NCBI GenBank assembly: GCA_030841085.1
Contig: JAVEDP010000008.1
Location: forward strand, 1 to 64,000
Reading direction: 5' to 3'
Length of the DNA: 64,000 nt
Source of the DNA: Pyrinomonadaceae bacterium
GTDB taxonomy: Bacteria > Acidobacteriota > Blastocatellia > Pyrinomonadales > Pyrinomonadaceae
Shown: positions 1 to 12,152 of the stretch, in pieces
How the letters are laid out: each line of letters opens with the position of its first letter
How positions within the stretch are numbered: position 1 is the first letter of the stretch
Translations under genes and position numbers: made by a program
Notes under the pieces: generated by a model
What the model was told of the DNA's origin: nothing
Databases searched by the model: none
What the model saw: the letters and a program-made list of their open reading frames with translations, nothing else

Positions 1-21
1 CGCGGTTCATCCGAACAATCA

Positions 22-36
22 CAGACTGAAGTCTGT
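22..36. repeat. Short perfect palindrome before tRNA-Thr
   Basis: ACAGACT and AGTCTGT form a short hairpin ending next to the tRNA. A related AGTCTGTGCCA ending occurs at about 12531-12542, and a similar palindrome lies at 59151-59208, so it probably belongs to one dispersed family. Confidence 0.5.
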
Positions 37-43
37 GCCAAGT

Positions 44-123
44 GGCGATGTAGCTCAACTGGATAACAGAGCGTCGGTCTTGTAAACCGAATGATAAGGG
101 TTCGACTCCCTTCATCGCCTCCA
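44..123 (+). tRNA. tRNA-Thr (anticodon TGT)
   Basis: A full cloverleaf can be drawn. Acceptor GGCGATG (44-50) pairs with CATCGCC (113-119), anticodon stem TCGGT/ACCGA closes loop CTTGTAA, and the T-arm is AAGGG-TTCGACT-CCCTT. CCA is encoded at 121-123. The anticodon TGT reads ACA. This is the first of eight tRNAs in a loose cluster that may continue left of the window. Confidence 0.95.
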
Positions 124-160
124 TGAACAGATGGTGAGTGATTGGAATAACGAGGAAACG

Positions 161-272
161 ATTTTCCATTCATCATTTTCCATATTTCATTTTTCATTGG
201 AACTACTTAAGACGCGCCCCAGGGCGATCTCTTAAATGGCAAATGAAAAATGGAAGATGACCGATGGAAAAT
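161..272. repeat. Imperfect long palindrome, TTTTCCATT arms
   Basis: The left arm (161-198) and right arm (234-272) are imperfect reverse complements, roughly 80 percent by eye, and AT-rich in contrast to their surroundings. The element fills the gap between tRNA-Thr and tRNA-Asn. No coding potential is visible. Confidence 0.7.
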
Positions 273-310
273 GGTGTTGCTTTAGCACCCATCCACCATC
301 CCCATCGTAT

Positions 311-387
311 TGTGGCGTAGCCAAGATGGTAAGGCACCGCACTGTTAATGCGGCCATGCGAAGGTTCGAACCCTTCCGCCACAGCCA
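311..387 (+). tRNA. tRNA-Asn (anticodon GTT)
   Basis: Acceptor TGTGGCG (311-317) pairs with CGCCACA (377-383). The anticodon stem CCGCA/TGCGG holds loop CTGTTAA, and the T-arm is GAAGG-TTCGAAC-CCTTC. Discriminator G is followed by an encoded CCA at 385-387. This is a well-formed cloverleaf. Confidence 0.96.
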
Positions 388-394
388 AAATTTT

Positions 395-520
395 GGAGTG
401 CGCTGACTTGTCAGCGCTTTGATAGGCTGCGACTTGTCGCAGCTTCCAGAGTCGAATTGAGATGAGACGCGGCGTCAAGCCGCCGCTGAAGAAAAAGCGG
501 TGACAAGTCACCGCACTCCC
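395..520. repeat. Chain of short hairpins with outer arms
   Basis: The outer sequence GGAGTGCG (near 395) returns inverted as CGCACTCC (near 513). Inside are small perfect hairpins such as GCGCTGAC-TT-GTCAGCGC and GCTGCGAC-TT-GTCGCAGC, and later GCGGTGACAAGTCACCGC. This looks like a composite of several related small palindromes filling the gap between tRNA-Asn and tRNA-Lys. Confidence 0.65.
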
Positions 521-525
521 CATTT

Positions 526-601
526 TGATCCGGAGCTCGAGGGACAGAGCAGCGGCCTTTTAAGCCGTGAGGTGCGGGTTTGAGCCCCGTCGGGTCAACC
601 A
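526..601 (+). tRNA. tRNA-Lys (anticodon TTT), slightly atypical
   Basis: Acceptor TGATCCG (526-532) pairs with CGGGTCA (591-597). The anticodon stem GCGGC/GCCGT carries loop CTTTTAA, and CCA is encoded at 599-601. The T-loop reads TTTGAGC, so the usually invariant C56 is T. The first pair is T-A where lysine tRNAs usually have G-C. The fold is otherwise complete. Confidence 0.88.
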
Positions 602-697
602 ATTTGGAGTGCGCCGGCAGAGCGCAGCGCGACGGCGCTTTGGATTAGCCGTCCGGATTGTTTGACCTCCAATCAATTCAAAGCGACTAATCCGAGG

Positions 698-769
698 CGA
701 TTTAGCACTGACGGCGCCGAGAGGTTCATAGGTTTGGTTGAGTAGCAGTACTCTGCCGTTTAGTGCCAC
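698..769 (-). pseudogene. N-terminal remnant of an HNH endonuclease gene
   Basis: A GTG at 769 is preceded at good distance by AAGGAGG on the minus strand. It opens a frame whose first residues read VALNGRVLLLNQTYEPLGAV. That matches the typical start of the small HNH endonuclease family with an LNxxYEPL motif (family knowledge). After about 23 residues the similarity stops and the frame runs through a palindromic stretch (about 634-700) and the tRNA-Lys region, with no HNH catalytic motif. I infer a gene truncated at its 3' side, probably by the repeat. Its own ribosome binding site is intact. Confidence 0.6.
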
Positions 770-797
770 CTCGGCACCTCCTTTCATTTGGGTTATT

Positions 798-899
798 AGC
801 CGCGGATGAACGCGGATTTACACAGACAAGAAAAAACTTACAGACTCCTTAGTACGGTTGTGTTCTTATCTGCGTCTATCGGCGTTCATCTGCGGTTGG
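798..899. repeat. Palindrome with CGCGGATGAACGCGGATT arms
   Basis: The left arm starting at 799 and the right arm ending near 899 are imperfect reverse complements separated by about 30 bases. A half copy of the same arm family lies at about 43905-43930. It fills the gap before tRNA-Cys. Confidence 0.7.
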
Positions 900-906
900 T
901 TTGATT

Positions 907-985
907 TGGAGCGCGCGGTGAGACTTGAACTCACGATACCGGATTTGCAATCCGGAGCCTTGGCCGTTGCGCTCTGCCGCCGCAC
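907..985 (-). tRNA. tRNA-Cys (anticodon GCA), abnormal 5' half
   Basis: On the minus strand the anticodon stem CCGGA/TCCGG holds loop TTGCAAA. The T-arm is GTGAG-TTCAAGT-CTCAC, and the 3' acceptor strand CGCGCGC is followed by T and an encoded CCA (907-909). U73 fits cysteine. The 5' half is wrong for a standard tRNA. The best acceptor strand, GTGCGGC, pairs at only five of seven positions, U8 is missing, and the D region is several bases too long without a normal GCC/GGC stem. It may be a diverged but working tRNA or a decaying copy. It is head to head with tRNA-Ile at 993. Confidence 0.7.
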
Positions 986-992
986 TTCAAAT

Positions 993-1066
993 CGCGGTGT
1001 AGCTCAATGGCAGAGCACTCGATTGATAATCGAGCGACGTCGGTTCAATTCCTTCCACCGCGACCA
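993..1066 (+). tRNA. tRNA-Ile (anticodon GAT), mismatched T-stem
   Basis: Acceptor CGCGGTG (993-999) pairs with CACCGCG (1056-1062). The D-stem is GCTC/GAGC, the anticodon stem CTCGA/TCGAG holds TTGATAA, and CCA is encoded at 1064-1066. The T-stem GTCGG against CCTTC has two mismatches in five pairs. The first pair is C1-G72, unusual for isoleucine tRNA. The 3' half resembles the GAAGG/CCTTC type of the neighbouring Asn and Gln tRNAs, so this may be a mosaic gene. Confidence 0.75.
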
Positions 1067-1073
1067 ATGTCTG

Positions 1074-1148
1074 ACAAACTTCAGTTTGTCGGCGCGCTTT
1101 CGATAAAAGTCCTCTTGCGAAACTCGGCGATAAACTGAAGTTTGTCGA
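1074..1148. repeat. Palindrome with ACAAACTTCAGTTTGT arms
   Basis: Two copies of a self-complementary core occur at 1074-1094 and 1125-1148 in inverted orientation, between tRNA-Ile(GAT) and tRNA-Ile(TAT). Confidence 0.65.
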
Positions 1149-1155
1149 ACAAAAA

Positions 1156-1251
1156 CGGGGCATAGCTCAACTGGTAGAGCAGCCGCCTTATAAGCGGTCT
1201 TAGCGCCAGATTAGCGCAAGGTTCTGGGTTCGAATCCCAGTGCCCCGACCA
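1156..1251 (+). tRNA. tRNA-Ile-like (anticodon TAT) with a long variable arm
   Basis: Acceptor CGGGGCA (1156-1162) pairs with TGCCCCG (1241-1247). The D-stem is GCTC/GAGC, the anticodon stem GCCGC/GCGGT holds CTTATAA, and the T-arm CTGGG-TTCGAAT-CCCAG is perfect. CCA is encoded at 1249-1251. By position the anticodon is TAT (reads ATA). The variable region is about 25 nt and folds as CTT-A-GCGC / GCGC-AAG around a 7-nt loop. It contains TTAGCGC twice. Bacteria normally read ATA with a lysidine-modified CAT anticodon, and isoleucine tRNAs normally have a short variable loop, so the true charging identity is uncertain. Confidence 0.75.
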
Positions 1252-1260
1252 ATAATCAGT

Positions 1261-1336
1261 CTCAAGTTCCATGTTTCAGGTTTCAAGTTCCACCGGGGGG
1301 GCCGACTTGAAACCTGAGACTTGAAACCTGAAACCT
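1261..1336. repeat. Palindrome with TTGAAACCTGAAACCT arms
   Basis: Left (about 1261-1292) and right (1305-1335) segments are reverse complements built from GTTTCAGGTTTCAAG-like units. The element lies between tRNA-Ile(TAT) and tRNA-Gln. Confidence 0.65.
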
Positions 1337-1340
1337 CGAT

Positions 1341-1415
1341 TGCGAGATGGTGTAAACGGCAACACGTCGGGCTTTGGACCCGAAGATGAAGGTTCGATTC
1401 CTTCTCCCGCAGCCA
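1341..1415 (+). tRNA. tRNA-Gln (anticodon TTG)
   Basis: Acceptor TGCGAGA (1341-1347) pairs with TCCCGCA (1405-1411) with one A-C mismatch. The D-arm is GTG/CAC, the anticodon stem TCGGG/CCCGA holds CTTTGGA, and the T-arm is GAAGG-TTCGATT-CCTTC. G73 and an encoded CCA (1413-1415) follow. T1-A72 fits glutamine. Confidence 0.93.
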
Positions 1416-1451
1416 ATCTTTTCACAATCAAGCAAGATGTTTTGAGCTCGA

Positions 1452-1690
1452 TTCATCGGGCTTTCCCGCAGGGTTACTAGGCCAGCCGTTTTACGGCTGG
1501 TTCGGATTGCGCCCGTCACCTGAAGGCCGTTTCAACGGCCTTGCGCCGATTCGGCTTTGATAAATAACTCGGCGGCTTAAGCCTCGAAGGAAGAAGCACG
1601 CTGAAGCCCGCTCCCCAGAATCGCAAAGCTCTTAGCCAGCCGTAAAAACGGCTGGCCTAATAACCCTTCGTGAAAGCCGCATGAATGCGG
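1452..1690. repeat. Large composite inverted repeat, GCCAGCCGTTTTACGGCTGG
   Basis: The segment at 1452-1502 returns inverted and imperfect at about 1632-1682. Each half also contains its own hairpin (CCAGCCG-TTTTA-CGGCTGG). Between them are more small hairpins such as GGCCGTTTCAACGGCC. This is the only visible content of the roughly 330-base gap 1416-1745. Confidence 0.7.
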
Positions 1691-1745
1691 CTAAAGGCAA
1701 ATCACTATTCTTCGCAAAAAAGGCGATTCGATTGTTGTTCGATGA

Positions 1746-1964
1746 AAAGAACGCGTCGTCAATGCTGAACCACCTCGATCAATTTGCTGGTTCAAGTGCA
1801 CGGCCCACGAACATTTGGCGCGAGCACGAGAACTGGTAACGATTCTGGAGAACCAGGACGTTTTCATTCGAACGGTTAAGTGTTACAAGACCGGTTACGT
1901 GCTGTATGAAGACGACGTCCAGGTTCTCGCGCAGCCGTTCGCCGATATGAGGTTTCGCTTGTAA
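1746..1964 (+). pseudogene. Small unrecognised ORF upstream of the DIP1984 gene, probably truncated
   Basis: An open frame of 72 codons ends at TAA 1962-1964. It begins after an in-frame stop at 1743 and contains no early ATG. A TTG at 1815 could give about 49 residues. The C-terminal half reads like real protein, for example GYVLYEDDVQVLAQPFADMR, and codon use is orderly. I do not recognise the family. It ends 26 bases before the DIP1984 gene on the same strand, so the two may once have formed an operon. The missing start suggests that the 5' part was lost to the adjacent repeat. Confidence 0.45.
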
Positions 1965-1990
1965 CAGGAATAAGATGGAGGTAACAAACA

Positions 1991-2443
1991 ATGAAGCTAG
2001 CAGAAGCACTAATCCTACGCGCTGATTGCCAGAAAAGATTCGCGCAGCTAAAGGCGAGGCTGCTCGTTAACGCGAAGGTACAGGAAGGTGATCAAGCCGC
2101 GGAAGATCCGAAGGAAATCTCCGCTCAACTCGAAGCGGTCGCTGATCAGCTCGCTGATCTGATCAAGCGCATCAATAAGACAAATTCGAGCACTGCGTAT
2201 GCCGGAGGCACGATCTCGGACGCGTTGGCGGATCGCGATGTGCTCGCGTTGCGCCGGGCGGCCTATGCCGAACTGGCGCAGACCGCGGCTATTACACAGG
2301 ACCGCTACACGCGTTCGGAAGTGAAATATGTCCGGACGATCAATGTGGTCGAGACCCAGAAGCGCGCTGATGAGCTCGCCAAGAACTATCGCGAGCTTGA
2401 TGCCCGCATCCAGGAACTCAACTGGCAGACTGAACTAGTCTGA
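1991..2443 (+). CDS. DIP1984 (septicolysin-like) family protein
   Basis: The 150-residue product starts MKLAEALILRADCQKR and is rich in charged helices. Its length and signature segments (AEAL at the start, RINKTNSST near residue 60, LREL-like helices near the end) match the DIP1984 family, whose molecular role I do not know as settled. A clear GGAGG at 1977-1981 supports the ATG at 1991. There is no signal peptide or membrane segment. It is the only intact protein gene inside the tRNA array, follows a truncated ORF, and is followed by a tRNA-like element. That suggests, without proving, a link to tRNA metabolism. Confidence 0.85.
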   Translation: MKLAEALILRADCQKRFAQLKARLLVNAKVQEGDQAAEDPKEISAQLEAVADQLADLIKRINKTNSSTAYAGGTISDALADRDVLALRRAAYAELAQTAAITQDRYTRSEVKYVRTINVVETQKRADELAKNYRELDARIQELNWQTELV

Positions 2444-2508
2444 GATTTCATCATTGTGAAATCCCGGATCTCATAAAGGCGATGCAGACGGTAGCCGGAG
2501 AGGATCAG

Positions 2509-2607
2509 AAGCGAGCACAAACCCGCCAACTGGGGAAGTTGGAAAAGCGCTGAATAAGCGCTTCATGGTGACGTCAGGGGCGGCGTCAATGGGTTCGAAT
2601 CCCGCTT
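2509..2607 (+). ncRNA. Degenerate tRNA-like element
   Basis: Four consecutive hairpins follow tRNA order: CCAAC-TGGGGAA-GTTGG (2526-2542, D-like), AAGCGC-TGAATAA-GCGCTT (2545-2563, anticodon-like), TGACG/CGTCA (2569-2588, variable-arm-like), and GGG-TTCGAAT-CCC (2591-2603, a canonical T-loop). There is no standard acceptor stem or CCA. AAGCG (2509-2513) could pair weakly with CGCTT (2603-2607). The anticodon-like loop lacks U33. It may be a decayed long-variable-arm tRNA or a tRNA mimic. It lies just downstream of the DIP1984 gene. Confidence 0.4.
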
Positions 2608-2736
2608 ACAAATAACGCCCAGTAAAGTCACAAGCGCAAGGGGTAACGTTAATGTCACTACCGCGTGCTGATCTGTTCCATCCGGCGAGGGTGGGTAAGG
2701 GGCAACTGCATCGCCTTGATGTTTGGGAAACGAAAA

Positions 2737-2821
2737 TGGCGGAGGGGACAGGACTCGAACCTGCATATCCTTTCGGACGGCGGTTTTCAAGACCGCTGCA
2801 CTACCATTATGCGACCCCTCC
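2737..2821 (-). tRNA. tRNA-Ser (anticodon TGA)
   Basis: On the minus strand acceptor GGAGGGG/CCCCTCC is perfect. The D-stem is GCA/TGC, the anticodon stem GCGGT/ACCGC holds CTTGAAA, and the long variable arm contains TCC-GAAA-GGA as expected for serine. The T-arm is GCAGG-TTCGAGT-CCTGT, followed by G73 and an encoded CCA (2737-2739). Confidence 0.95.
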
Positions 2822-2878
2822 GCGCTGCGCAAATAATATAACCCAAGCTCGGTTCACAGAAAAACAATCGGGCACGAT

Positions 2879-4750: not shown

Positions 4751-4785
4751 TTGGCTTTACCGCACTATGCAGTTTCCGGAACGAG

Positions 4786-4916
4786 TGGGGGCATGCCCGC
4801 TTCCCAACCTCGAGGTAATGACGGTTCTGCGCCGGATCTTATTGCAAGGTTCCCGACGCGGATCCACCACGCTCTTCGCTAAATTTCAGGTTGGGAAGGT
4901 GGGCACGCCCCCGCTC
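4786..4916. repeat. Palindromic repeat, GTTGGGAAG...GCCCCCGCTC family
   Basis: The left arm (GGGGGCATGCCCGCTTCCCA, 4787 onward) is matched by AGGTTGGGAAGGTGGGCACG near 4888-4916 in inverted orientation. A second member of this family lies at 9598-9732. It sits between the converging nadE and the next gene and could act as a terminator. Confidence 0.75.
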
Positions 4917-5964: not shown

Positions 5965-6819
5965 CTATACGATCGAAACGAGGGTTGCGCTCAACTCCAG
6001 ATCTGTGTGGCCCACCGCCAGATCGAGTTCTGCCTCGACGTCGCCGATTCCCTGCCGCAATTTCTTGAAGTCGAACAGTTCATGGTCCAACAACTGTGAC
6101 GGCTTGACGTTTCCCATGGCCGTCAACATCGAACTGCGAATGTGTGGAATCTCGTCTTCAAGTTCCGTGATTAATCGCTTGATGCGCGCGCGCTTAAGAT
6201 TGGGTTGCGAGCCGCAGAGGTCACAAGGAATGATCGGAAACTGTTGCGCCGCGGCATACGCAGCGATGTCAGACTCGCGGCAATAGGCCAGCGGCCGGAT
6301 TACTGTGTTGCGCCCGTCGTTGGAACGCAACACGGGCGGCATCGCTTTCAACGAGCCGACAAAGAAAAGGTTTAATAAAAAAGTGGTGATGATGTCATCG
6401 GCATGATGGCCCAGCGCGATTTTGTTGCAGCCTTCTTCCACGGCGATGTTGTAGAGAATCCCGCGCCGCAGCCGCGAGCAGACGGAACAGTACGTCTTAC
6501 CTTCCGGCACGAGCCGCTTAACGATTGAGTAGGTGTCACGTTCGAGGATGCGAAAAGGCACCCCACGCGTCTCGAGATATTTGGGCAAGACGCCGGCAGG
6601 AAAGCCGGGCTGCTTCTGGTCCAAATTGACCGCGAGCAGATCAAAATCGACAGGCGCCCGGAGCTGCACATCCAGTAACAGATCGAGCAGCGTGTAGCTG
6701 TCCTTGCCTCCCGACAAACAGACCATCACGCGATCGCCATTTTGAATCATGGCGAAATCGGCGATTGCCCGACCCATGCCGCGCAGCAAATTGTTTTTTG
6801 TTTTACTTTCCATAACCAA
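5965..6819 (-). CDS. ttcA: tRNA 2-thiocytidine(32) synthetase TtcA
   Basis: The 284-residue protein has the PP-loop SGGKDS at 36-41, a CSVC pair near residue 115, the [10 protein letters not shown] segment and a second CDLC pair near 205. That is the order typical of TtcA, which activates C32 of certain tRNAs and thiolates it using an iron-sulfur cluster held by such cysteines (family knowledge). The ATG at 6819 is used; M3 at 6813 is an alternative. It is monocistronic as far as can be seen. Several tRNAs of the array at 1-2.8 kb carry C32. Confidence 0.9.
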
Positions 6820-7148: not shown

Positions 7149-7772
7149 ATGCTCGAAGTTGAGCGAACGCACGATAGTAAATCTGGGCAGCGTGGGACTG
7201 CCACAGCGCGAGCGTTGTATCGGCAAACGCCCGCGGTTTCTCGCTCCGTTTCTGCCGAAGCAAACTTAAACTCGCCAGCCTCTCCCGTCACTGCGAATGG
7301 TTCTGCGCCTCGAATGTCGCCGGTGGACAGCGGAAGATTTCAAACCAGAACGCCAGTGATTACCGGCGAAGTGAACTACAAGGGCATGCTGCCAATAGAT
7401 GGCGTTATTACCGGTCAACTCGGTGGCAGCGGCGGCAGCCTGGCAATCAGGCAAAAGTCAGGGATCTTCTCAACTGGTCCCGAGCTGTCGGGCGAAATCA
7501 GCTTTCGCGACGCAGTGCGAGTGAACGGCCATATAGCCGGCACTGTCTACTCCGAACGCGGCACCTTAATGGTCGATGACACAGCGCGCGTTGATGCCAA
7601 CATCGAGGTGGCGGTCGCAGTGATCAATGGAACGATCAATGGCGATATCGTCGCGCATCAAAGAGTTGAGATTGGACCAGGTGCAAAAATTTACGGCAAT
7701 ATTTGGACGCGCTCGATTGCCATCAAGGATGGCGCGGAATTCGAGGGTGTCTGCACGATGATCGAAAACTAG
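7149..7772 (+). CDS. Bactofilin family protein (first of three)
   Basis: The 207-residue protein has a disordered, Ser/Pro-rich N terminus (1-75) followed by a bactofilin beta-helix. The helix shows the regular short repeats RVNGHIAGTV, TARVDANIEV, GTINGDIVAHQRVE and AKIYGNIWTRS. Bactofilins polymerise without nucleotides into filaments that shape the cell or anchor other proteins. The end EGVCTMIEN is typical. It starts a set of three bactofilin genes on the same strand; 72 bases separate it from the second. Confidence 0.92.
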   Translation: MLEVERTHDSKSGQRGTATARALYRQTPAVSRSVSAEANLNSPASPVTANGSAPRMSPVDSGRFQTRTPVITGEVNYKGMLPIDGVITGQLGGSGGSLAIRQKSGIFSTGPELSGEISFRDAVRVNGHIAGTVYSERGTLMVDDTARVDANIEVAVAVINGTINGDIVAHQRVEIGPGAKIYGNIWTRSIAIKDGAEFEGVCTMIEN

Positions 7773-7844: not shown

Positions 7845-8450
7845 ATGAGCGCTCTTCTGGAACGTGACCTGGTGGGTGACGAGGTCACCGATTTATGCGA
7901 CGCGGTATTTGATCCCGCTACTTTTTTTGATCGCTGGCTCGCGGACGTCGCAGCCGGCAATAGTCAGCCTGCCGCCGAACTCCCTTTAACAAACGACGAC
8001 GTGGATCAGGAATTTTTTGTCGAGTCGCGTATTGGCTCAAACTGCGACTTGAATTTCGAGGGGGTGCTGCACTTTGACGGTTATTCCCTCGGAAATGTCC
8101 TTTCGCCAGGCGGCACATTGGTGTTGACCAGGCGCGGCCGGATCGAGGCGGATATCGACGTCGGCACAGCGATAATTTGCGGCGCCGTCACCGGAAATAT
8201 CACCGCCAGCGAACGCGTGGTGCTGGAAAGCGACGCCCGGGTAAAGGGACAAATATTTACCCGCAGCTTGTCGATGCATTTAGGTGCGATTTTGGATGGC
8301 GATTGTCTTCTTTCAAGCACGAGCGACGCGACTCAGACGGAGTCCAGCCCGATATTACCGGTGGAAGATGCCCGGCTAGCAGCGGATCTGTCAGTCGTGT
8401 GGGCGGATGAACCCGCCGAGGAACTCGAAGAGTTTTTGCTTAGTGCTTAA
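7845..8450 (+). CDS. Divergent bactofilin-like protein (second of three)
   Basis: The 201-residue protein carries the beta-helix repeats in diverged form (LHFDGYSLGNVLSPGGTLVL, GRIEADIDVGTAIICGAVTG, ARVKGQIFTRSL). It has an acidic N terminus and an acidic tail ending EELEEFLLSA. Compared with its neighbours, fewer of the usual glycines and asparagines remain, so its filament surface is probably different. The N-terminal 65 residues look helical rather than disordered. Its position between two canonical bactofilins suggests co-assembly. Confidence 0.8.
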   Translation: MSALLERDLVGDEVTDLCDAVFDPATFFDRWLADVAAGNSQPAAELPLTNDDVDQEFFVESRIGSNCDLNFEGVLHFDGYSLGNVLSPGGTLVLTRRGRIEADIDVGTAIICGAVTGNITASERVVLESDARVKGQIFTRSLSMHLGAILDGDCLLSSTSDATQTESSPILPVEDARLAADLSVVWADEPAEELEEFLLSA

Positions 8451-8688
8451 GCGTCCTGACGCTCTTTGAGCCAATGACGACTCTTGAGCGATTACATTTT
8501 GATTGCAAAGCTAGACACCCGAAGAGTTGTTTGTCTATTATGTTCTTCCCCGCTTCTGGGCGGTTGACCAATCAGAGCCAGTCACGCAGGACTGGATAAT
8601 TCCACAACACTAGACACGCGCGTCGTTTTGTTACTGCCAACGTCCCGATGGTGACGAACCTGCGCCCCCAAATTACGGAGGTTTACTG

Positions 8689-9363
8689 ATGCTTAGGATA
8701 GGAAAGAGTCCGAAAGACACGGCCGACCACGAAAGTCCCGCCGAAAAACACGACGTTTCAAACTATAGTGCTGCCCCCAGAACGTTCCCCTCTTACCAGA
8801 CGCCACCCGCACCGGAAGCAAAACCACAATCTGAACCTGCTTCTATGGCGCCGCGAGCATTGACGGAAAGCGAATCACTTGCGCGCGAGATCAAGGAAGG
8901 CAATCTTAGCGGTTTTGTCGGCAGCGGCACGCTGGTTACTGGAGAAGCCAATTTCAAAGCGTTAATGCGCGTTGATGGTCATCTGTCCGGACGAATCACG
9001 TCGAGCAGCGGCACCCTGATCGTCGGCGCCAATGGCAAGGTCGATGCGAACATCGAAGTCGCGATCGCCGTGATCCATGGCACCGTGAATGGCGATATTA
9101 TTGCCACGCAACGTTTGGAGCTCGGCCGTGCAGCGAAACTGAATGGCAACATCCAGACACCTTCGCTGGTGATTGAGCAGGGCGCGTTGTTTGAAGGCAG
9201 CTGCAAGATGATCAAGATGAACGCCGGCGCCAGCAAGACAAAGTTGGACGGACGCGATGTGCAGCCGCTGGATACGAGCAGCATGAAATCCATTGCCGCC
9301 GATTCAAACAATGAACAAGCCAAGATCGCGAATATGTCGAGCGCCTCGAGCGTCGCCAGCTAA
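8689..9363 (+). CDS. Bactofilin family protein (third of three)
   Basis: The 224-residue protein has a Pro/Ser-rich N terminus (about 1-75), a canonical bactofilin core (LMRVDGHLSGRITSSSGTLI, GKVDANIEVAIAVIHGTVNG, AKLNGNIQTPS) and a low-complexity tail of about 50 residues rich in Ser, Ala and Lys. A GGAGG at 8679-8683 precedes the ATG by about five bases. It closely resembles the first bactofilin of the set. A 238-base gap from the second gene could allow separate expression. A strong terminator follows at 9390. Confidence 0.93.
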   Translation: MLRIGKSPKDTADHESPAEKHDVSNYSAAPRTFPSYQTPPAPEAKPQSEPASMAPRALTESESLAREIKEGNLSGFVGSGTLVTGEANFKALMRVDGHLSGRITSSSGTLIVGANGKVDANIEVAIAVIHGTVNGDIIATQRLELGRAAKLNGNIQTPSLVIEQGALFEGSCKMIKMNAGASKTKLDGRDVQPLDTSSMKSIAADSNNEQAKIANMSSASSVAS

Positions 9364-9389
9364 GACCGATCACAATTGAAAGTTTTGTC

Positions 9390-9432
9390 AGGCGCTTCGC
9401 CCGTAAGAACGGCGAGGCGCCTTTTGTTTTTT
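9390..9432 (+). terminator. Rho-independent terminator after the bactofilin genes
   Basis: AGGCGC-tt-CGCC pairs with GGCG-a-GGCGCCT and is followed by TTTTGTTTTTT. It lies 27 bases after the stop of the third bactofilin gene. Confidence 0.85.
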
Positions 9433-9597
9433 AGCCACTTGACGGTCCGGTGTAATGCAGTTTGAGTCAGAGGCCTTACAATGGCAACGGAGAGTGCGCG
9501 TTAGATTTCCAGTGTTGTGGGATCAAACTTCTTCATTGTTTTTTATTAATTCCCCCCGCCGCCAGATCACAACAAATAAAGTCCACTTCAATTATGC

Positions 9598-9732
9598 TCA
9601 GTTGGGAAGGGTGGCTTGCCCCCGCTCTTACTCTTGGAACCATTCGTCAGTATTCCCACACTGAGCGGGGCAAGCTCCGGGGTCCCCAGTGGGGCAGCCC
9701 CACTGGGGTGGAAGACACCCTTCCCAACCTGA
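9598..9732. repeat. Palindromic repeat, GTTGGGAAG...GCCCCCGCTC family (second copy)
   Basis: The left arm (GTTGGGAAGGGTGGCTTGCC at 9600) and right arm (ending CCCTTCCCAACCTG near 9731) are reverse complements. A nested hairpin CCCCAGTGGGGCAGCCCCACTGGGG lies in the right half. The rest of the 551-base gap 9364-9914, apart from the terminator, shows nothing recognisable. Confidence 0.75.
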
Positions 9733-9914
9733 AAATTTATGTTACTTGAATGGTCACCCTAACCCAGCATTACCATCTGCGGTTAACTGGTGGGTGCCGC
9801 GATTGCCGATTGTCGATTGCTCCCGGAACTGGCGATTAGCTTGACACGAACGCACTGCCTCGCCGATACATAGAAAGTAATCCCCAATTCAGAGGAACTG
9901 TCCCACAATCGACG

Positions 9915-12152
9915 ATGAATGCTTTCTTCTTTTGCAAAACACTCTGCGCGCGCTGGGTCTCAATTTCTTTGTTAACCATGTGTGTGCTACTGCTCGTTTC
10001 ACCTGGCGCGTTTGCGCAAAAACGGCAGCAAATACTTCACAATCCTACTTCCGGCGATCCGGTGCCCAAGCTTTTACTTCTGCGCATCATTCGCGCGGAA
10101 GACGAGCGACGTTGGGACAATGATTTGCGGGATTTGTTCCGCGCCCGTAATGCGAACGTGCGCAGCCGCGCCGCGCTTGCTGCCGGCCGAATCGGTAACG
10201 AAGCTACGATTGCCGATTTGATCGAACTACTGCGACACGATGATGAAACTGAAGTGCGTGCGATGGCAGCATTTGCACTCGGTGAAATCGAATCGCCGTT
10301 GGGAGCCGATGCGCTGTTGGCAACTTTGAAAGAAACGCGGGAAGAGATATTGCGCGCGCGGGCCGTGGAAGCCTTGGGGAAAATAGCGGGGGCATTGCCA
10401 AAAGAACAAGAGGCGCGGAGTAAGGAATTGGGCGACGCAATTCTTGGCGTATTGAACTTTGAAGCGCGGCGCCGGTCCGCTCCGGACCGTTTGACGATAC
10501 TGCTCGGCCTGACTGCCGCGTTGCGTGCTAAACCGGCAAACGCCGGCCCTGTCATTGCTGAATTTCTAACTTATTCAGATCCGCGCATCCGCGCCGATGC
10601 CGCAAACGCGCTGGCACGCTTGAAACTAAAAGATGGCAACGATCAACTGCGCAAACTTCTGACCAGCGATCCGGATCCAATCGTGCGCGCGAATGCCGCG
10701 CGCGTGCTGGGCACAACTGAAGACAAAGCTTCATTTGATCCGTTGCTTGATCGCGCGCTCAAGGACAACGACTTACGCGTACGTGTCAGCGCCATTCGCG
10801 CGCTGGGGTTGCTGAAAGATCCCCGCGCCGCTGGAGGATCGAGCACTTGGAGAAGCCTTCTGATGGAGCTGCACCCGACGCGAGACAACGAAATTCTGGA
10901 ATGGGCGGCAGCGCTCGGGACGATTCTTCAAGGTGCCCAAGATAACAAAAATCTGGACTGGCTTGGACGCGTACGCGATCGCTTCAACAAGGCGGCTCCC
11001 CAGGCAGAGATTGCCTACGCGCGTGTATCTCCTGAAAAGTATCTTGCTGAGTTGGGAAGCGGCAAGATCGCGCGGCAAAACGTTCAGAAAACTCTACTGC
11101 TCAACTGGCGAGTGGGATCAAGCCTAGCTCAAGGGCTCGGTGAAGTTGCCACCCTGCCAGACTCAAACAAAGACAAAAAACGTCTGATTACACAGGCCGA
11201 GGAACTCTTGGGCAATATGCTCGACTATCGCAACTCGGGCCTGACCATCAACACGCTCGTCGCTGTTCATTCTGAATACGCGGTTCCTGATGTGCTTCGC
11301 GCGTTTGCGGCTTTCAAGCCGAATGATCTCGCGAAAGTTTTGAGGAACCATCTAAAAGAGTCGGACGTGGTCATTCGTGGCACAGCCGCCGAATTGTTGG
11401 GCGAACTTCCACCCGACGAAACAAATGCGCGCGCGCTAATAGATGCTTTGCCGGTGGCACTGGCTGATAGGCAACTAAACGACGCGGCACTTTCAATTCT
11501 CGATGCGCTTGCCAAGCAAAAAACCACGAAAGCAAATGAAGCGATCAAGACTGCGCTTGATTCCAGCGATCATCTCGTTCGGCGTCGCGCGGTGGCGCTG
11601 CTAAAAGCGAATGGCGTTGGAGATTTCTCAGCGCGCATCGGCACCGTCAAGGCGACCAATACAGCAGCGGATTATGAACGCGCCATCGCTCGTATCGGTA
11701 AACAAGTGCGCGCGGTTGTCGCAACTTCGCGCGGCTCGTTCACAATTGAATTTCTTCCTGAATCCGCGCCGCTGACAGTCGACAATTTCGTTCAGCTTGC
11801 CAAACGAAATTACTTCAACGGCTTTACAGTCCATCGTGTCGTTCCCAACTTCGTTATCCAGGATGGCGATCCGCGCGGCGATGGCAATGGCGGTCCCGGC
11901 TATCAGATTCGTTGTGAGATAAATGAAGTACCTTACGAACGCGGCGCGATTGGCATGGCGCTTTCGGGAAAAGACACCGGCGGATCGCAATGGTTCGTGA
12001 CGCATTCGCCGCAACCGCATTTGGACGGCGGCTACACCGTCTTCGGCAATGTCATTTCAGGAATGGATGTCGTCGACAACATCGCGCGCGGCGATGTCAT
12101 TCGATCCGTTTCAATAACGGAAAAAACGATCCGGGCCAATCGCAAACCGTGA
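9915..12152 (+). CDS. Exported HEAT-repeat protein fused to a cyclophilin peptidyl-prolyl isomerase
   Basis: The 745-residue protein begins with a signal peptide (hydrophobic 17-33, ending GAFAQ). About 70-560 consists of HEAT-like helical repeats (RSRAALAAGRIGNEATIADL, EVRAMAAFALGEIESPLGAD, IVRANAARVLG). The last 150 residues form a cyclophilin with HRVVPNFVIQDGD, SGKDTGGSQWFVT and GYTVFG, so the catalytic Arg and the Phe/Gln binding residues are present. It would isomerise proline bonds outside the cytoplasm, with the HEAT solenoid as a client or partner platform. It stands alone between two palindromic repeat regions. Confidence 0.9.
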   Translation: MNAFFFCKTLCARWVSISLLTMCVLLLVSPGAFAQKRQQILHNPTSGDPVPKLLLLRIIRAEDERRWDNDLRDLFRARNANVRSRAALAAGRIGNEATIADLIELLRHDDETEVRAMAAFALGEIESPLGADALLATLKETREEILRARAVEALGKIAGALPKEQEARSKELGDAILGVLNFEARRRSAPDRLTILLGLTAALRAKPANAGPVIAEFLTYSDPRIRADAANALARLKLKDGNDQLRKLLTSDPDPIVRANAARVLGTTEDKASFDPLLDRALKDNDLRVRVSAIRALGLLKDPRAAGGSSTWRSLLMELHPTRDNEILEWAAALGTILQGAQDNKNLDWLGRVRDRFNKAAPQAEIAYARVSPEKYLAELGSGKIARQNVQKTLLLNWRVGSSLAQGLGEVATLPDSNKDKKRLITQAEELLGNMLDYRNSGLTINTLVAVHSEYAVPDVLRAFAAFKPNDLAKVLRNHLKESDVVIRGTAAELLGELPPDETNARALIDALPVALADRQLNDAALSILDALAKQKTTKANEAIKTALDSSDHLVRRRAVALLKANGVGDFSARIGTVKATNTAADYERAIARIGKQVRAVVATSRGSFTIEFLPESAPLTVDNFVQLAKRNYFNGFTVHRVVPNFVIQDGDPRGDGNGGPGYQIRCEINEVPYERGAIGMALSGKDTGGSQWFVTHSPQPHLDGGYTVFGNVISGMDVVDNIARGDVIRSVSITEKTIRANRKP

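Follow-up and report, generated by a model that had tools for sequence, protein, structure and literature searches.

The window analysed here is the 64,000-nucleotide stretch at positions 1 to 64,000 of contig JAVEDP010000008.1 (C21 in our numbering), part of a 4.69-Mb, 98.9% complete draft genome of a Pyrinomonadaceae bacterium (Acidobacteriota; GCA_030841085.1). Base 1 of the window is the end of the contig. The first 2.8 kb carry a cluster of tRNA genes, several gene remnants, an intact gene of the DIP1984 family and, directly after it, a structured RNA. We consider it very probable that this region belongs to a mobile island holding spare, structurally divergent tRNAs and RNA-repair genes, of which the contig contains only the right-hand end. 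The RNA after DIP1984 is the most unusual feature of the region; it is new and absent from Rfam. The features are listed below, where G004, G006 and G014 are genomes of the same genus that carry orthologous arrays.

44..123, plus strand: array tRNA-Thr(UGU), 80 nt, D loop enlarged (ARAGORN, Rfam; 98% identical to the G006 array copy)
311..387, plus strand: array tRNA-Asn(GUU) (ARAGORN, Rfam; 97% identical to G006, 96% to G014)
526..601, plus strand: array tRNA-Lys(UUU) with G8, G14, A15-U48 and A19-U56 (ARAGORN, Rfam; features alike in five species)
677..790, minus strand: 5' remnant of an HNH endonuclease gene, amino acids 2-31 at 677-766, with DNA similarity reaching about 790; orientation opposite to that in intact arrays
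907..985, minus strand: tRNA-Cys(GCA) remnant; 907-966 corresponds to the last 60 nt of an intact array copy, with other sequence in place of the 5' acceptor strand
993..1066, plus strand: array tRNA-Ile(GAU), two T-stem mismatches common to G006 and G004 (ARAGORN)
1156..1251, plus strand: array tRNA-Ile(UAU), 96 nt, class II-like; variable-arm hairpin 1203-1217 with heptaloop CAGAUUA at 1207-1213 (ARAGORN)
1341..1415, plus strand: array tRNA-Gln(UUG), one mismatch in the acceptor (ARAGORN)
1779..1964, plus strand: 3' remnant, 61 codons, of a 130-amino-acid gene that adjoins Ro60 or DIP1984 in relatives
1991..2443, plus strand: DIP1984 family gene (DUF6847), intact (NF038048, 1.4e-54; PF20935, 7e-53)
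2489..2702, plus strand: structured RNA of about 200 nt, directly 3' of DIP1984; T-arm-like hairpin 2591-2603, G-rich end 2687-2702
2737..2821, minus strand: tRNA-Ser(UGA) (ARAGORN, Rfam)

A preliminary description of the window, made from its letters, had counted eight tRNAs in this space. Seven of these were called alike by ARAGORN and Rfam, at 50-67 bits against a cut-off of 29. The eighth, tRNA-Cys, is genuine tRNA sequence but damaged: over its 3' 60 nt it shares 97% identity with the intact array tRNA-Cys of G006, its Rfam score of 28.7 bits is slightly below the cut-off, and it was not called by ARAGORN. Rfam matches on the tRNAs to miRNA and plastid families were dismissed as chance or antisense. 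The tRNA-Ser(UGA), which is similar to the genome's ordinary Ser-CGA, is probably a housekeeping gene outside the array. As quoted in the available text of PMC5966550, Tran et al. define a tRNA array unit as at least 20 tRNA genes on one stretch at a density of at least 2 tRNAs per kb. The density here (7 in 2.8 kb) is that of such a unit; the seven called tRNAs and one remnant, cut by the contig end, number fewer than 20. Only the right-hand array end is visible, the contig stopping at base 1, and the bias towards A-ending codons first read from these tRNAs is an effect of seeing that one end, as complete arrays serve nearly all amino acids.

The copy of the island in the window is rearranged. 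Remnants of tRNA-Cys and HNH form an inverted block between Lys and Ile; the HNH remnant (about 30 codons), correctly recognised as such at the outset, is 70% identical to intact array HNH. Between Gln and DIP1984 only the C-terminal half of the 130-amino-acid gene is present, the full-length gene being found in G006 and G004; the predicted structure of its protein is poor (predicted local distance difference test score, 46). The tRNAs are nevertheless conserved and DIP1984 is intact. The island in this genome is partly decayed or incompletely assembled.

The DIP1984 gene was also identified correctly beforehand: its protein scores 184 bits against NF038048, with a curated cut-off of 70, over residues 2-149 of 150. 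A homologue has a solved structure (3kdq). Codon positions 1, 2 and 3 are 89, 91 and 60% identical to the G006 gene, the mark of a gene under purifying selection. PADLOC assigned no defence family to DIP1984 or RtcB, and matched HNH to generic HNH nucleases only. Neither a function nor an RNA partner for the family was found among the openly licensed PubMed Central (PMC) papers searched.

The island in related genomes

Searches with the array DNA of the window recovered orthologous arrays in at least four genomes of the same genus, with the same tRNAs about 75-98% identical. The array of G014 holds 28 tRNAs in 6.8 kb, in which RtcB separates Lys-CUU from Pro and HNH separates Cys from Phe; that of G003 holds 27, with DIP1984 between Ile and Gln. 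Both exceed the 20 genes of a tRNA array unit, and 13 tRNAs are shown in each of G006 and G004. HNH is intact in G014, G006, G004 and G012, in or beside the array as in the Anabaena L-array discussed below. Pfam searches confirmed RtcB (1e-122), HNH and a Ro60-type protein.

Within the genus the array is sporadic and its flanking genes vary among carriers, in keeping with movement. RtcB, either of the array type or of a more distant kind, is present in 72 of 119 genomes of the family, and array tRNAs flank it in several genera. Array-type RtcB genes are interrupted at two positions in G063:C4, G066:C117, G020:C39, G068:C309, G065:C491 and G078:C146, in some cases within one long open frame, as an intein would give. 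Similar RtcB-tRNA arrays occur on IMG/VR contigs, with up to 36 tRNAs, and the mobile array supposed in the preliminary description is upheld by these observations together.

DIP1984 lies beside tRNA arrays in Acidobacteriota (L100, L101, L102, L105, L113) and Cyanobacteria (L121, L123, L124, L155, L158, L163). Several of these loci also have RtcB and HNH, and the Acidobacteriota ones have Ro60. YrlA-type Y RNAs were located near DIP1984, Ro60 and tRNA arrays at L105:4607-4738 and 4752-4888, L102:8409-8542, L156:8205-8339 and L152:3738-3849, in hosts that are Acidobacteriota and one cyanobacterium; Ro60 and a Y RNA are both found in L105, L102 and L156. A link to RNA damage and repair, at first only suspected, holds too: RtcB lies inside relatives' arrays, Ro60, Y RNAs and DIP1984 lie beside related Acidobacteriota arrays, and DIP1984, RtcB and HNH accompany tRNA arrays in Cyanobacteria. 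Proteins without a Pfam match were seen in or next to arrays at L066:2091-2882, L065:7033-7467 and L121:7906-8628, the last of which recurs in several cyanobacterial loci.

A structured RNA downstream of DIP1984

Similarity between the DNA of the window and that of G006 extends about 270 bp beyond the DIP1984 stop codon. A three-sequence profile located the RNA 3' of DIP1984 in 78 of 80 named loci, chosen as the best-scoring DIP1984 matches, and in all 80 after one iteration. In every locus it is on the DIP1984 strand, starting 1-286 nt past the stop codon and usually within 30 nt. The loci come from Acidobacteriota, Cyanobacteria, Chloroflexota, Firmicutes, Proteobacteria and Planctomycetes. 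DIP1984 and the structured RNA of about 200 nt directly downstream are the two halves of a pair.

Covariation analysis gave a structure with seven helices, including a pseudoknot, and 28 pairs in all. Overall, 93.2% of cells are paired, and 27 of the 28 pairs have changes on both sides. The covariation score was 0.50, versus 0.21 after shuffling (none of 500 shuffles reached 0.50) and at most 0.10 for slid structures. The sequences scored had also contributed to deriving the structure, which favours it, but the margin is very large. Of 81 RNAs, 47 contain a T-arm-like motif, which is thus common but not required. Poly-T ends follow the RNA in 13 of 74 cases versus 123 of 1600 random stretches, and are thus enriched but not general.

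A covariance model applied to 396 Acidobacteriota genomes matched four at E < 1e-25, exactly the four with strong DIP1984 matches, and in each the RNA lay within about 130 nt of DIP1984. Weak extras in this set were limited to two RNA matches and one DIP1984 match. The model returned one strong match per genome in 25 of 25 DIP1984 genomes; several genomes that it recovered, G219 and those of L137, L141 and L148 among them, had not gone into building it. The RNA was not found by the model in tested arrays lacking DIP1984. On the viral contig L260, DIP1984 (8001-8474), the RNA (8997-9178), an HNH gene (9241-9789) and a second RNA copy (9798-9983) follow in order, and the layout looks as if the HNH gene had moved with a duplication. 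No Rfam 15 family was obtained for 2489-2702 (cmscan, E < 5). The sole Rfam overlap with the RNA in the window, sX4, was on the opposite strand at E 3.8 and was rejected as chance level.

Array tRNAs and the GAU arm of tRNA-Ile(UAU)

To count tRNAs genome-wide, all Rfam tRNA hits were fetched and typed, a census that some tRNAs could escape. Ordinary copies of Thr-UGU, Asn, Lys-UUU, Gln-UUG and Cys-GCA were found elsewhere in the genome, a result in favour of a mobile array, since the preliminary description had held that the idea would fail if the array copies were the only ones and all scored as normal. A second Ile-GAU or Ser-UGA was not found elsewhere in the assembly by this census, and neither were Ala-UGC, Tyr, Gly-UCC and Arg-UCU. 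We attribute the missing Ile-GAU and Ser-UGA copies to incompleteness of the assembly, because other essential tRNAs are missing too; this is the expected outcome when rRNA and tuf regions are unassembled. By the census, the array tRNAs are redundant with housekeeping ones and divergent in sequence, as are those of the Anabaena-type L-array. Degenerate tRNA copies lie elsewhere in the genome, namely a second Cys-GCA (L006:1749-1825) and a 5'-truncated Val-GAC (L037:123-194).

Identity to G006 is 91-98% for five of the seven called tRNAs and 81% for Gln, compared with 60% at third codon positions of DIP1984. The four tRNAs initially described as abnormal are so: Lys has altered contacts, Cys is broken, Ile-GAU has T-stem mismatches and Ile-UAU has a long variable arm. 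The oddities of Lys, Ile-UAU and Ile-GAU are not random decay, because orthologues in other species have them. In Lys-UUU of all five species, contacts 15-48 and 19-56 have both become A-U, a joint change that accompanies the altered G8 and G14, and array Ala-UGC has G19-C56 in G014 versus A19-U56 in G006 and G003, a matched double change inside the genus. Matched changes in tertiary contacts suggest working L-shaped tRNAs. Array tRNA-Leu is 70-79 nt long in nearly all arrays, versus 85-87 nt for the genome's own; the available text of PMC6582537 describes a short variable loop in one mycobacterial cluster tRNA-Leu. Viral tRNA-Leu is likewise often class I with a short variable loop (IMG/VR loci L180-L522). 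Escape from nucleases by anticodon-loop change was considered and found unsupported, as array anticodon loops are mostly canonical and the changes lie in the D, T and variable regions.

The variable region of Ile-UAU in the window forms the hairpin GCGC-CAGAUUA-GCGC. This type of tRNA, as a second new observation, is common on environmental phage contigs, and the long-arm form predominates there. On viral contigs, long-arm Ile-UAU numbered at least 120 stretches (some of which are not tRNAs) versus 32 short ones with the same T-arm anchor; unique viral Ile-UAU tRNAs numbered 113 long versus 28 short, a count that includes a set selected for CAGAT. As the CAGAT loop had first come from a pattern requiring CAGAT, the claim was checked again using a pattern tied to the T arm alone. 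In the resulting set, unselected for the loop, GAU is present in the variable arm of 42 of 51 long arms, mostly in the loop, and absent from 9 of 51. Stems bearing the GAU loop vary in sequence yet stay complementary. By comparison, GAU occurs anywhere in the variable region of 29 of 152 Ser, 13 of 112 Leu and 3 of 43 Tyr viral tRNAs. Shared ancestry could explain part of this pattern. The phage T4 tRNA-Ile is annotated at 74 nt and is therefore not of the long-arm type.

An anticodon occupies the centre of a 7-nt loop, and that of the major tRNA-Ile is GAU. The anticodons that isoleucyl-tRNA synthetase normally recognises are GAU or lysidine-modified ones. The enzyme depends on the anticodon (PMC9976931). 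Because GAU sits at the loop centre, matches the anticodon of the major tRNA-Ile and corresponds to what the synthetase needs, it is a reasonable hypothesis that the GAU variable arm is a synthetase mimic.

Other features of the window lie between the array genes or beyond them. Short repeats at 603-645 and 392-519, which have many copies genus-wide and fill intergenic gaps of the array, are probably small non-coding repeats. A PP-loop ATPase gene (5965-6819, minus strand), 3 kb off the array, encodes a protein that we take to resemble TtcA, the tRNA 2-thiocytidine enzyme. Three similar-looking bactofilin-type genes stand in tandem at 7149-7772, 7845-8450 and 8689-9363, the first confirmed by Pfam.

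Known systems, rival explanations and meaning

The closest described cases are the cyanobacterial L-array and the mycobacterial tRNA array units. The L-array, or trn operon, of Anabaena has 26 tRNA genes on the delta megaplasmid and belongs to the TrcR regulon (PMC10272220, PMC9938897); the operon stays off unless translation inhibitors relieve TrcR, whose regulon also includes rtcB (PMC10272220). Shared with the present arrays are a large extra tRNA set and an adjacent HNH gene (all8564), alongside co-regulation of rtcB and induction by translation inhibitors in Anabaena (PMC10272220, PMC9938897). There, however, rtcB is chromosomal, whereas RtcB is embedded in the arrays of the Pyrinomonadaceae relatives, and Ro60, Y RNAs and DIP1984 with its RNA are a further difference, being near arrays related to that of the window. 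According to the available text of PMC5966550, PMC6582537 and PMC12803027, mycobacterial units likewise have near-complete extra tRNA sets, embedded HNH, horizontal spread, a cluster tRNA-Leu with a short variable loop and a tRNA-Ile(TAT). That text mentions no RtcB, DIP1984 or Ro60, and the piece in the window itself has fewer than 20 tRNAs. The Salmonella rsr-yrlBA-rtcBA operon brings together Ro60 (Rsr), Y RNAs and RtcB and responds to tRNA fragments and damaged tRNAs, and the available part of its account mentions neither a tRNA array nor DIP1984 (PMC7790460). As for the DIP1984 family (NF038048, DUF6847; 3kdq), the protein in the window is a clear member, the difference being that it is tied here to a structured RNA.

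Were the region a drifted cluster of ordinary housekeeping tRNAs adjoining an unrelated DIP1984 gene, the housekeeping look of Ser-UGA and the lack of canonical Ile-GAU and Ser-UGA elsewhere in the assembly would be accounted for. However, canonical copies of five isoacceptors exist elsewhere in the genome, relatives have these odd tRNAs too, in arrays of 13-28 with RtcB and HNH, and Tyr, Gly-UCC, Ala-UGC and Arg-UCU are missing as well, so that incompleteness explains the missing copies; we give this account hardly any credence. It is improbable, if less strikingly so, that the tRNAs, HNH and DIP1984 are functionless leftovers of a dead prophage. Phage contigs do carry RtcB-tRNA arrays, class I Leu and class II Ile-UAU tRNAs, one of them has DIP1984 with the RNA, and HNH, Cys and the 130-amino-acid gene are broken here. 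Against this, no phage structural genes were seen by eye, and without a phage-library scan, in the open reading frames of the first 9 kb or around relatives' arrays. Moreover, DIP1984, the RNA and most tRNAs are conserved far above synonymous sites, and were therefore under selection in bacteria until recently.

Two further alternatives concern the RNA. The conserved stretch might be an mRNA 3' untranslated region or attenuator instead of a separate RNA, as its constant strand and usual position within 30 nt of the stop codon would allow. An offset of up to 286 nt, a size of about 200 nt with a pseudoknot (large for an attenuator), downstream genes that vary by locus with few recurrent neighbours, and the second copy on the phage contig, after an HNH gene and away from DIP1984, all count the other way, and we regard this as rather unlikely. 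That the RNA is a divergent bacterial Y RNA of YrlA type and DIP1984 a partner of Ro60 would suit the T-arm-like hairpin and the linkage to Ro60 in Acidobacteriota. But L105 has two separate YrlA RNAs just upstream of DIP1984 and the RNA downstream, L152 also holds both kinds, the YrlA model (RF02553) gives no match to the RNA at E ≤ 5, and most DIP1984 loci have no Ro60 nearby; this identity is very improbable.

Several points weigh against the mobile repair island preferred here. The full island is inferred from relatives, the window's own left flank lying beyond the contig end. Of the parts of a Ro60-Y RNA-RtcB repair operon, neither RtcB nor Ro60 turned up in the assembly of this genome, and an Rfam scan gave no YrlA in the first 3 kb of the window. 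The 80 loci with the RNA are not a random sample. Most Firmicutes DIP1984 loci have no tRNA array or RtcB nearby, and the role of DIP1984 and its RNA may accordingly be wider than the island.

The identity of the island is well supported all the same, and functions for the RNA and the GAU arm we infer. A reserve tRNA set combined with repair is the best reading, because the island joins parts of the Anabaena and Salmonella systems. By analogy with these, the arrays would remain silent until translation is damaged and then supply tRNAs, while RtcB would reseal cut tRNAs and Ro60 with Y RNA would handle damaged RNA. DIP1984 might bind the structured RNA, whose frequent T-arm-like hairpin might allow it to take part in that response as a scaffold or decoy resembling tRNA; that the two act there as an RNA-protein pair would be the simplest proposal. 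With no repair genes found in this genome, the surviving pair and the tRNAs may act alone there or be on their way out.

More tentatively, DIP1984 and the RNA of about 200 nt may be an undescribed ribonucleoprotein, present in several phyla and on one or more phage contigs, that tRNA-repair islands have taken up. Separately, the phage-type tRNA-Ile(UAU) may carry on its variable arm a copy of the GAU anticodon loop that makes the host isoleucyl-tRNA synthetase accept an AUA-reading tRNA; taken jointly, these are possible but somewhat doubtful. The GAU arm makes it a pointed question how phages decode AUA with host enzymes. For DIP1984, whose literature offered no function, the structured RNA is a concrete candidate partner. 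The spare-tRNA arrays of bacteria and phages have so far been without clear purpose, and RtcB inside such arrays, with Ro60, Y RNAs and DIP1984 beside related ones, ties them to the repair of cut tRNAs.

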